Shown one piece after another: positions 25,938 through 31,555 of a DNA stretch of 64,000 bases. The number at the start of each line of letters is the position of its first letter. Position 1 is the stretch's first letter. The position numbers and the translations under genes are program-made. Below the pieces are notes generated by a model. That model made no database searches, was not told where the DNA came from, and was given only the letters and a program-made list of their open reading frames with translations. This stretch comes from Bradyrhizobium monzae. Its GTDB lineage: Bacteria; Pseudomonadota; Alphaproteobacteria; Rhizobiales; Xanthobacteraceae. The stretch lies in NCBI RefSeq assembly GCF_021458635.1, contig NZ_JAIRDQ010000005.1:434001-498000 (forward strand), read 5' to 3'.

Positions 25938-27134
25938 CTAGACGCTCCAGGTTTTCTCGTTAAACGGCAGGCGGATGGTGGCGCTCGCGGTCGCCGCGAT
26001 GCCTTCCTCGCGGCCGGTGAAGCCGAGCCGCTCGCTGGTCGTCGCCTTCACCGCGACCCGGGAGATGTCGACGCCGGAGATCTCGGCGATTCGCGCGCGC
26101 ATGGTGTCGCGCAAGGGGCCGATCTTCGGCCGCTCGCAGATCATCGTCACTTCGAGATTGGCGACACGGCCGCCGCGCGCCGTCACGCGCTCGATGGCGT
26201 ATTTCAAGAACTGGTCGGAGGAAGCGCCCTTCCACTTCGCATCGCTCGGCGGGAAGTGCGAGCCGATGTCGCCGTCGGCCAATGCACCGAGGATCGCGTC
26301 GACCAGCGCATGCAGGCCGACATCGCCGTCGGAATGGGCGAGGAATCCTTTCGTGTGGGGCACGCGCACGCCGCACAGCATGAGGTGGTCGCCCTCGCCG
26401 AAGGCGTGCACGTCGTAGCCCGTGCCGGTCCTGATGTCGCCGAGCAGGCTGGCCAGGCGCGCTTCCTCGCGCACGAAATCCTCGGGGGTGGTGAGCTTCA
26501 TATTGGCAACATCGCCTTCAAAGGTCGCAACCGTCAATCCCGCCCATTCGGCAATCGCGGCATCATCGGTGAAATCGCTTCGTCCGTCCTTTGCCGCACG
26601 ACGATGCGCTTCGAGGATGACATCGAAACGAAAGGATTGCGGCGTCTGCGCGATTCGCAAGCTTGCCCGATCGGGCGTGTCCTCGACATTGCCGTCCGCG
26701 CTGGTGACCTTGATGGTGTCGGTGACGGGGACGACGGGGATCGCCGCACCGGTGCGGCTCGCCGATTCGATCGCGCGCGAGATCACGCCGGCCGAGACGA
26801 AGGGACGCGCGGCGTCGTGGATCAGGACGATGTCGGGCTTGTGCTTGGCGAGCGCTTCGAGACCGGCGAGCACCGAGGCCTGGCGCGTCGCGCCGCCATT
26901 GGTCGGTGCCTCGTGCCTCAGGCCTGCGACCGCTGCCGTGAACATGGCGCTGTCGTCGGGGTTCACGACCGGCTGCACGGCGAACACGTCGGCGTGGGTG
27001 CTGAAGGCTTCCATGGCACGGTAGATCACCGGCACGCCGCCGATCTCGCGATATTGCTTCGGCCCGCCGGCGCCTGCGCGCAGGCCACGACCGGCCGCGA
27101 CAAGAACGACTGCGGTGCGCTGTGATTTCGCCAT
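25938..27134 (-). CDS. ispDF: Bifunctional IspD/IspF isoprenoid enzyme
   Basis: This fused enzyme of the non-mevalonate pathway combines the cytidylyltransferase acting on methylerythritol phosphate (IspD) with the cyclodiphosphate synthase (IspF). The 398-residue protein shows the IspD nucleotide loop ([19 protein letters not shown]) and [12 protein letters not shown] in the first 230 residues. The IspF zinc site (GTGYDVHAF) and [25 protein letters not shown] follow. Fusion is usual in alphaproteobacteria. The ATG at 27134 is chosen; upstream in-frame residues look non-coding. It heads the ispDF-pncC unit, divergent from dusB. Confidence 0.96.
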
Positions 27135-27308
27135 AGGACTCAAATATTCAGCTGTTAAGGGATGCGTCGGGCGTGGGGTGAATTGCCGGCATGCCTCTAG
27201 CACGGCAGGCCCGCAAAAAAAGGGGGTTTCCCCCGATTGTGGGATTCAGCATTTTGCTGCACTGCACTTGAAAGATTTGCAGAACTGTCTAAACTGTAGG
27301 CATGGCGC

Positions 27309-27337
27309 TTGACTGCACAAGAATTGTGCGCAAGATA
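27309..27337 (+). promoter_or_regulatory. Promoter of dusB-ntrBC with NtrC-like operator in the spacer
   Basis: TTGACT (27309-27314) and AAGATA (27332-27337) are 17 bases apart. Most of the spacer is the palindrome GCACAAGAATTGTGC (27315-27329), that is GCAC-N7-GTGC, the half-site and spacing of enteric NtrC sites. A protein bound there would block RNA polymerase, which fits the NtrC autorepression known for rhizobial dusB(ORF1)-ntrBC operons. The predicted transcription start falls close to the dusB start codons. Confidence 0.6.
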
Positions 27338-27341
27338 GGCC

Positions 27342-28418
27342 ATGGCAGGCGCGATGAGGCCCTGTCCACTCAACGAGACCCCTGTGACCGGCTCGGCAAG
27401 ATCAGGCTCTAAGCCGTTGAAAATAGGCGACATTGAAATCGCCACCCCGGTCTTCCTGGCACCGATGTCGGGAGTGACGGACTCACCCGTCCGCCGGCTT
27501 GCCGCCGAGCTTGGCGCGGGTCTGGTCGTCTCCGAAATGACGGCCAGCGATGAACTCGCCAACGGTCACCGCATGTCGCGGTTGCGCTGCGAAGCGACCG
27601 GTGTCGGGCCGCATGTCGTCCAGCTCGCCGGCTGCGAGGCGCATTGGATGGCCGAGGGCGCCCGGATCGCGGAAGCCGAGGGCGCCGACATCATTGACAT
27701 CAACATGGGCTGTCCGGCCCGCCACGTCACCGGCGGCCAATCCGGCTCGGCCCTGATGCGCGATCTTGATCATGCCGTCAGCCTGATCGAGGCGACGATT
27801 GCCGCCGTAAAGGTTCCGGTGACGCTGAAGATGCGGCTCGGCTGGGACGACCGCACCCGCAACGCGCCGGAGCTCGCGCGTCGCGCGGAGGCCGCCGGCA
27901 TCAAGCTCGTCACCGTCCATGGCCGCACCCGCTGCCAGTTCTACAAGGGCGAGGCCGATTGGGATGCGATCCGCGCGGTGCGCGAGGCCATCTCCATTCC
28001 GCTCGTCGTCAACGGCGATATCACCACTTTCGATAAGGCGCTCGCGGCGCTCGAGGCCTCCGGCGCCGACGCCGTGATGATCGGCCGCGGCGCCCAGGGC
28101 CAGCCCTGGCTGCCCGGCGAGATCGGCCGACGCCTGAACGGCGGGGCGGCGGAAGCAACGCCCTCGCTCGCCACGCAACTGCATTATGTTCGCACGCTCT
28201 ATGAGGGTGTCTGCGCACTCTATGGCCTGCGCGTGGGCCTCAAGCATGCGCGAAAACATCTCGGCTGGGCGCTCGATGTTGCCGCCGATGCGAGCGGCGC
28301 GCCGGTCGAGACGCTGAAAGCCTGGCGCCAGAAGATCCTCACGTCCGAGCATCCGGGCCTCGTCCACCAGTCGCTGCAGGATGCCTTTGACGATTTCGCA
28401 TGGAGCGCTGCTGCATGA
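27342..28418 (+). CDS. dusB: tRNA-dihydrouridine synthase B (NifR3 family)
   Basis: A flavoenzyme that reduces uridines in the tRNA D-loop. The 358-residue product has the TIM-barrel opening [19 protein letters not shown], the catalytic cysteine in [19 protein letters not shown], the KMRLGWDD and [12 protein letters not shown] segments, and the FMN-site VNGDI and [10 protein letters not shown]. As ORF1/nifR3 it heads the rhizobial ntr operon, and it overlaps ntrB by 4 bases. Starts at 27342, 27354 or GTG 27384 are all possible; given the promoter position, a downstream one may be used. Confidence 0.95.
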
Positions 28419-29590
28419 CCACAGCCGCTGAGCATCGCCGGCCGCTTCCGTCCGAGAGCGACGCGATCCTGGATGCCTTGCCCAATCCCGTGCTGATGAT
28501 CGGGCCGGACGGCAAGATCGTCGCCGCCAATATCGCGACCGAAGCGTTCTTCGATATCTCGACGCAGTTCCTGAAGCGGCAATCGCTGAAGGAGCTGGTG
28601 CCGTTCGGCAGTCCCTTGCTGGCGCTGATCGACCAGGTGCGCTCGTCGAACTCTCCGGTCAACGAATACAAGGTCGATCTCGGCACACCGCGCATGGGCG
28701 GAGATCGCCAGGTCGATCTGCATGTCGCGCCGCTCACCGAGCGGCCCGGCCATATCGTGGTGATGCTCCAGGAGCGCTCCATCGCCGACAAGATGGACCG
28801 GCAGCTGACCCACCGGAGCGCTGCGCGCTCGGTGATCGCGCTGGCCGCGATGCTCGCGCACGAGATCAAGAACCCGCTCTCCGGCATCCGCGGCGCGGCA
28901 CAGCTGCTGGAACAGCAAGCGTCCTCCGAAGACCGCATGCTGACACGGCTGATCTGCGATGAGGCCGACCGCATCGTGACGCTGGTCGACCGCATGGAAG
29001 TGTTCGGCGACGAGCGGCCCGTGGTGCGCGGCCCCGTCAACATCCATTCGGTGCTCGACCACGTGAAGCGGCTGGCGCAGTCGGGCTTTGCCCGCAACAT
29101 CCGCTTCATCGAGGACTACGATCCGTCGCTGCCGCCGGTGCTCGCCAACCAGGACCAGCTGATCCAGGTGTTCCTCAATCTGGTGAAGAATGCCGCCGAA
29201 GCGCTGATCGATGTCTCCGACGCAGAGATCCAGCTCACCACCGCGTTCCGCCCCGGCGTGCGCCTGTCAGTCCCCGGTCAAAAATCCCGGGTATCCCTGC
29301 CGCTTGAATTCTGCGTGAGGGACAATGGACCAGGCGTGCCGGACGATCTTCTGCCCAACCTGTTCGATCCCTTCGTGACCACCAAGCAGACCGGCTCTGG
29401 CCTCGGTCTCGCCCTGGTCGCCAAGATCGTCGGCGATCACGGGGGCATCATCGAATGCGAGTCTCAGCCGCGGAAAACCACCTTCCGTGTGTTGATGCCG
29501 ATGTACTCGACATCGGCCAAGACAACCGATCACAGCAGTCGCGACGGCTCCGCCGGGAAGTCGTCGTCTGCATCACAGGGGGCAAAATGA
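28415..29590 (+). CDS. ntrB: Nitrogen regulation sensor kinase NtrB
   Basis: NtrB phosphorylates NtrC when nitrogen is scarce and dephosphorylates it when PII signals sufficiency. The 391-residue cytoplasmic protein has an N-terminal PAS domain (about 17-125; [19 protein letters not shown]), the H-box [17 protein letters not shown] with His149, and a HATPase domain ([32 protein letters not shown]). The start overlaps the dusB stop as ATGA. ntrC follows after 9 bases. Confidence 0.97.
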
Positions 29591-29599
29591 GGATTAACA

Positions 29600-31042
<1,443 letters not shown>

Positions 31043-31075
31043 TCCCCGCGGCAAACGCTCGTTTGCGCAGAGGTG

Positions 31076-31106
31076 GCTCAGCTCCCCTACCAAAGGCGAG
31101 CTGAGC
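31076..31106 (+). terminator. Perfect 9-bp inverted repeat after ntrC
   Basis: GCTCAGCTC (31076-31084) and GAGCTGAGC (31098-31106) enclose a 13-base loop, 33 bases after the ntrC stop. No T run follows, so it is either a factor-dependent stop or an RNA-stability or processing hairpin that uncouples ntrBC from ntrYX. Confidence 0.5.
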
Positions 31107-31223
31107 CTGTCCGAATCGCGCTGGCCTGAACGGCTGACGCGGTGAGCAGAAGTCCGAATCAGGCCGAAATGTTCCGCTGGAATGCTCGAATTCGTCATTC
31201 GGGCACAGAGCGCAGCGTCGCAC

Positions 31224-31370
31224 CTACCTGATCAGGCGCGCCGCGACCGGCTCGATGTTGGCCATCTGCGCGGTCTGGTCCTGCCTGCTGGGGCCGTTGA
31301 CCAAGAGATCAGAGGCCACGATCAGCAGCAGAACGGCCGATACCATGATCGCGAGAAAGAATCTGTCCAT
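31224..31370 (-). CDS. Small membrane protein antisense within the ntrC-ntrY gap
   Basis: On the minus strand an ATG at 31370 opens a 48-residue frame ending TAG at 31224-31226. The product begins MDRFFLAIMVSAVLLLIVASDLLV, a single membrane helix, followed by a polar tail with QDQTAQMANIEPVAARLIR. GC3 is coding-like and the shape is that of a true single-span microprotein. It lacks a clear Shine-Dalgarno and points away from ntrY. The 513-base ntrC-ntrY gap otherwise holds the hairpin at 31076 and presumably the ntrY promoter. Confidence 0.45.
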   Translation of the reverse strand: MDRFFLAIMVSAVLLLIVASDLLVNGPSRQDQTAQMANIEPVAARLIR

Positions 31371-31555
31371 GCCGGGTCAAGCCGGGATGGCCGGATTCTG
31401 TTCCGAGCATCGGCAAACGGCCGCCATCCCTGTGGATGCGCCCGTCCGTCGCGGCGGGGGCGCCGCGGAATTGTCGCAATTCGGCAACAATGTGGTACGA
31501 ATACATCAGTACCCGCCGCCCATGGCGGACCCCTTTTCAGCACCCCATTGTCGGA

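Follow-up and report, generated by a model that had tools for sequence, protein, structure and literature searches.

The dusB-ntrB-ntrC genes of Bradyrhizobium monzae were examined in a 64,000-nt stretch of DNA (the window, to which all coordinates refer), in which an initial annotation had proposed that NtrC represses its own operon from an operator upstream of dusB. ispDF lies on the minus strand and is followed by an intergenic region and then, on the plus strand, by dusB (27384..28418, with its start re-assigned as described below), ntrB (28415..29590) and ntrC (29600..31042). The ispDF product matches Pfam IspD and YgbB, dusB matches the Dus and nifR3_yhdG/DusB models, and ntrC, which encodes a GAFTGA motif, matches TIGR01818 ntrC with 747.5 bits (cut-off 558.6). 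The ntrB product has kinase domains and scores 202 bits with the NtrB NCBIfam model, under the 240-bit cut-off. The ntrB start overlaps the dusB stop as ATGA and ntrC starts 9 nt past the end of ntrB, a gene order that gives an operon layout running from dusB through ntrB to ntrC, for which a single transcript is predicted. dusB and ntrB were adjacent in 67 of 67 genomes, and none of these 67 offered a natural negative control in the form of a dusB without a neighboring ntrB. DusB relatives with 96-98% protein identity are found in Bradyrhizobium records, which marks the window as DNA of Bradyrhizobium type. One 98% record (L001) carries the name Frankia sp. RB7, a label that is probably wrong or else due to contamination.

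Upstream DNA was compared for 78 of 80 dusB relatives (the named loci), together with an order-wide sample of 30 loci from 121 genomes (109 of which matched) and 40 further stretches. Sixty-one of the 78 named loci, from Bradyrhizobium, Tardiphaga, Afipia, Rhodopseudomonas and unclassified relatives, form the close group referred to below. In the window, TTGACT (27309-27314) and AAGATA (27332-27337) stand 17 nt apart and enclose GCACAAGAATTGTGC at 27315-27329, located as the initial annotation had reported and of the GCAC-N7-GTGC form ascribed to it. That form occurs at chance level in the window (2 versus 2.36 expected), and the bare pattern was therefore dropped as evidence. With up to one mismatch, GCACAA-N3-TTGTGC was found once against 0.16 expected, at least one occurrence being present in 16 of 100 shuffles; TGCAC-N7-GTGCA with up to two mismatches showed no excess in the window (16 versus 37.75 expected), and TGCACNANNNTNGTGC occurred at two sites genome-wide versus one for its reversed control. 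The palindrome rises above chance because it is conserved across the close group, being exact in 43 of 61 loci, with a related dyad at the equal position in most of the others. Its arms also co-vary within the group (0.674 symmetric versus 0.613 shuffled, with a maximum of 0.667 in 500 shuffles).

The comparison placed this palindrome in the downstream half of a tandem pair. A two-site model was re-estimated from 78 stretches that do not belong to the close group (near-duplicates were kept), with the gap between sites allowed to vary from 8 to 13. The pair was present in 67 of these training stretches, with a gap of 11 in 42, 10 in 22 and 12 in 3. When the gap was freed to range from -10 to 60, it was 11 in 59 of 61 close-group loci; of the 84 outside loci, 74 passed the score filter and 67 had a gap of 10 or 11. 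Scored with their own matrices over 127,968 positions in the window, site 1 (TGTCTAAACTGTAGGCA, 27286..27302, plus strand) ranked first and site 2 (TGCACAAGAATTGTGCG, 27314..27330, plus strand), which is the palindrome described above, ranked second. The pair at 27286 and 27314 scored 35.7, compared with 4.8 for the top pair using neither site and 13.6 for the highest pair in 20 dinucleotide shuffles of the plus strand. The two sites are 28 bp apart from center to center, and the upstream one, site 1, is the more widely conserved, so that the initial reading of a lone NtrC site gave way to a two-site arrangement. In five order relatives (L102, L117, L118, L122 and L130) the likely dusB ATG lies inside site 2, and the operator there would coincide with the translation start.

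Classic NtrC targets are glnII, glnK and glnB/glnA. Both site matrices were folded into one symmetric matrix, with the consensus TGCCTA-N5-TAGGCA, and the 450 nt before each of five genes of the same genome were scanned. A site before glnII scored 17.4 and one before glnB-glnA 11.7; one glnK has three upstream sites (13.6, 8.9 and 8.6). The dusB sites scored 17.9 and 12.6, against 8.0 for the next-best position in the window. By this comparison the NtrC-type sites over the dusB promoter are shared with other NtrC targets, and a motif common to dusB, glnII, one glnK and glnB points to NtrC as the putative binder of the tandem sites. The core of the NtrC regulon is given as glnA, amtB, glnBK, ntrB and ntrC (PMC5343134), and the NtrC motif as TGC-N11-GCA (PMC10746234); a pattern search with this motif at the gln genes was uninformative. 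A further NtrC-type site, TGCCTAAAAAATAAGCA, was found in the same genome (L161, about 1501-1517) some 340 nt upstream of a formate/nitrite transporter gene, which becomes a candidate NtrC target.

A promoter scan of 27100-27500 returned a single promoter-like match, with 0.1 expected. This match, P1 (27268..27295, plus strand), has a -35 element TTGAAA at 27268-27273, a 16-nt spacer and a -10 element TAAACT at 27290-27295, the latter inside site 1, and its predicted start is at about 27302. Among the 61 close-group loci, 58 have the TTG of P1 at a distance of 18 nt from site 1; outside the group it stands at offset 18 (27 loci) or 19 (10 loci), giving 37 of 69. As TTG is also frequent in the close group at offsets 32 (53 loci) and 29 (24 loci), it is mainly the loci outside the group that make the P1 offset informative. 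We infer that P1 would serve as the main promoter, conserved order-wide. The B. japonicum RpoD consensus is given as TTG-N16-18-TATA (PMC4842269).

The initial annotation had taken TTGACT-N17-AAGATA as the promoter of the operon. Its -35 element held up, as none of the 50 Bradyrhizobium/Tardiphaga-type loci departs from TTGACTGC; AAGATA is not a conserved -10 element, CANNAT at a spacing of 16 fitting better (47 of the same 50 loci). The revised promoter, P2 (27309..27336, plus strand), therefore combines TTGACT (27309-27314) and a 16-nt spacer with a weak -10 element, CAAGAT (27331-27336), and has a predicted start at about 27343. TTGACT was found in none of the 10 Afipia/Rhodopseudomonas-type loci listed, and P2 is probably a second promoter gained in the Bradyrhizobium/Tardiphaga-type lineage; the order-wide element and sole scan match is P1 instead. 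Relative to the predicted start at about 27302, site 1 spans -16 to +1 and site 2 spans +13 to +29, and relative to P2, site 2 fills the spacer.

The start codon of dusB was re-assigned from the same alignments. GTG 27384 has a counterpart in 60 of 61 loci, located 33 nt ahead of the conserved core (at -30 in L046). An in-frame stop lies between -72 and -45 in 26 of the 61 loci, and many loci have the upstream ATG in another reading frame. ATG 27342 and ATG 27354 were each rejected as the dusB start, the frame being broken in L001 for the former and in L012 for the latter. A Shine-Dalgarno-like CGAGA (27374..27378, plus strand) can be read 5 nt ahead of GTG 27384, which is probably the start of dusB. 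The predicted leader would then measure about 82 nt from P1 and about 41 nt from P2. Of the two alternatives raised by the initial annotation, a later start codon fits these data, and a leaderless message is unlikely with leaders of this predicted length.

Most close relatives can fold a hairpin in this leader (27344..27367, plus strand), between the operator and the GTG, with a near-invariant RATGNN hexaloop. In 27 rows selected to share one register, paired cells make up 74.1% versus 63.8% in shuffles (0 of 500 as high), and 31 cells are changed on both sides versus 14.5 (0 of 500); pairs with two-sided change were unremarkable in number in these rows (7 versus 5.7, reached in 95 of 500 shuffles). 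Controls slid along the alignment gave lower values, except that a shift of +2 tied on the count of pairs with two-sided change. The signal was weaker on a 39-row alignment, with only four consensus pairs, two of them with two-sided changes, and the lowest-energy fold of the window itself differs from the hairpin. No Rfam match was obtained in 27000-31400. The element may be a 5' stabilizer, a means of translation control or a dyad acting as DNA.

What the comparison shows is a pair of sites at a set distance, overlapping P1, together with a motif that recurs at glnII, glnK and glnB, the gene order and the GTG start; we infer that NtrC would be the binder, that its binding would repress transcription and that P1 and P2 would both be used. 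Very probably, then, 27286-27330 is a tandem NtrC operator through which NtrC represses its own operon. Site 1 would be occupied by one NtrC dimer, which would cover the -10 element of the main sigma70 promoter P1, and site 2, 28 bp further downstream, by another, placed just within the P1 transcript and across the P2 spacer. NtrC bound at both sites would exclude RNA polymerase at P1 or P2, and a rise in NtrC would result in less synthesis of NtrC and DusB. The self-repression switch of the initial annotation is thereby backed in the type of operator, through the conserved pair and the motif at the gln genes, and amended from one site to two. Several observations weigh against an NtrC-bound tandem repressor. 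The seed strings of the two-site model were picked by eye after all loci had been seen, the window's own group included, and 11 of the 78 training loci lack the pair. Within the 450 nt scanned, a second glnK (2.9) and a glutamine synthetase-like gene (3.0) are without the motif, and a loose order consensus with up to two mismatches was not enriched genome-wide (165 versus 201 for the reversed control). Symmetric co-change was absent at site 1 in the close group (0.682 versus 0.690 shuffled) and at both sites outside it (0.554 versus 0.568 and 0.569 versus 0.587), so the case there rests on fixed half-site letters. Finally, the activity of the S. meliloti dusB promoter, PdusB, is up in nitrogen-starving media (PMC10746234), from which it follows that repression is not simply strongest under nitrogen limitation.

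This last observation, along with the GAFTGA motif of the NtrC encoded here, would suit an NtrC that activates the operon from the tandem sites, or that activates or represses it according to nitrogen status. Site 1 over the P1 -10 element and site 2 downstream of the predicted start are, however, in a repressor's place, and in Caulobacter the operon rises about 20-fold upon loss of NtrC (PMC10274813); we give activation only a slight chance. Just as doubtful is an arrangement in which one NtrC site, within the spacer of a sole promoter TTGACT-N17-AAGATA, controls a dusB message with little or no leader. The invariant TTGACTGC and the exact palindrome in most close-group loci speak for such an arrangement, whereas conservation of site 1 and P1 extends much further, the promoter scan omits P2, AAGATA is not the conserved -10 element and GTG 27384 is the conserved start. 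Alternatively, site 2 might be the target of a different regulator of the cluster, for example NtrX, as it contains CAA-N3-TTG, which we take to resemble NtrX sites, and CAAGAATTG is found in the window site and in several close-group variants. The order-wide consensus keeps ends of the TGC..GCA type but not CAA..TTG, and the same matrix picks out glnII, glnK and glnB, making a different binder very improbable.

Directly upstream of the P1 -35 element lies a PhaR-type box, TGCAGTGCAGCA (27255..27266, minus strand), with the core TGCACTGCA at 27258-27266 on the plus strand. The minus strand of 27255-27266 is an exact match to the consensus TGCRNYGCASMA, derived from footprints and a promoter alignment in B. 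diazoefficiens (PMC6201568), and the core YGCRNYGCR of the S. meliloti PhaR palindrome (PMC12542648) matches here as well, so that the box resembles the PhaR/AniA boxes of both species. The consensus alone is not significant, with 2 occurrences in the window versus 1.39 expected. The core was present in 64 of 64 close loci, the window's own genome included, at an offset of -28 in 62 and -29 in two, and the full 12-mer in 37 of the 64. Outside the close group, 28 of 68 loci carry the core within 75 bp at offsets that vary from -44 to -12, compared with rates of 9.2% after dinucleotide shuffling and 9.9% in background windows; the reversed pattern was found in 5 of 68 loci, and the 75 bp that follow contained the core in 2 of 67. 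The excess corresponds to a binomial probability of about 1e-11 with relatedness ignored, the sequences including 27 distinct ones. A phaR gene is carried by 67 of 70 genomes, again including this one, whose phaR upstream region contains a similar box; among the three genomes without PhaR, the loci L148 and L158 lack the box and the third, L110, fell to the site filter, two loci being too few to decide. By its consensus match and its conservation at the promoter, the box is a candidate PhaR site.

PhaR reads carbon stores of polyhydroxybutyrate (PHB), which accumulates when nitrogen is short and carbon is in excess. A precedent for paired control by AniA (PhaR) and NtrC is reportedly the S. 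meliloti small RNA mmgR, judging by the title of that work. We tentatively suggest, with a little less than even confidence, that the promoter is a joint carbon-nitrogen switch, with PhaR at about -44 to -36 beside the P1 -35 element and NtrC on the tandem operator, such that PHB status would set the NtrC level. If true, PhaR input into ntrBC would be a molecular reason for the coupling of carbon and nitrogen metabolism. A term search of the main texts of three PhaR papers did not find dusB, ntrB or nifR3 named among the targets, whereas here a box stands at the dusB-ntrBC promoter. Passages of work on PHB-cycle mutants describe a link between nitrogen and PHB that does not run through a PhaR-type box at dusB, and ntrC was not up-regulated under the nitrogen-limited condition used (PMC5596199). 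The box may instead serve the divergent ispDF, a real possibility that we hold to be less likely than not. ispDF is divergent upstream in 29 of 29 named loci listed, and it is the minus strand that fits the B. diazoefficiens consensus; against this, the core is nearly symmetric and keeps a fixed place by the P1 -35 element in all close loci, with the start of ispDF some 120 bp away. The ispDF upstream region also contains a terminator-like GGGGGAAACCCCC followed by TTTTTTT (27222-27234, minus strand) directed at ispDF, with a stem that is imperfect or altered in several of the relatives listed.

NtrC autorepression of dusB-ntrBC is already known in Sinorhizobium and Caulobacter, and R. etli ORF1-ntrBC is reportedly a further case, going by the title of Martino et al. 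1996. What is proposed here are the sites, the promoter and the start codon. For the nitrogen master switch of a major legume-symbiont group, the proposed architecture would comprise two operators, a different promoter from that of the initial annotation and a corrected dusB start, and the candidate PhaR site would tie carbon storage to nitrogen control. In B. japonicum, sense and antisense RNAs both start within the 3' region of ntrC (PMC4842269), which corresponds to the vicinity of 31042 in the window. In Caulobacter, NtrC was located on the operon promoter by chromatin immunoprecipitation sequencing, and the protein lacks the GAFTGA motif, in contrast to the NtrC encoded in the window (PMC10274813). 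A close likeness is to S. meliloti, which has the same operon with NtrC at PdusB: binding was observed by electrophoretic mobility shift assay, and negative autoregulation of dusB-ntrBC is stated for rhizobia (PMC10746234). Compared with S. meliloti and with R. etli, the latter known to us by title only, the present analysis places tandem sites, assigns P1 and P2 and proposes a new start for dusB.
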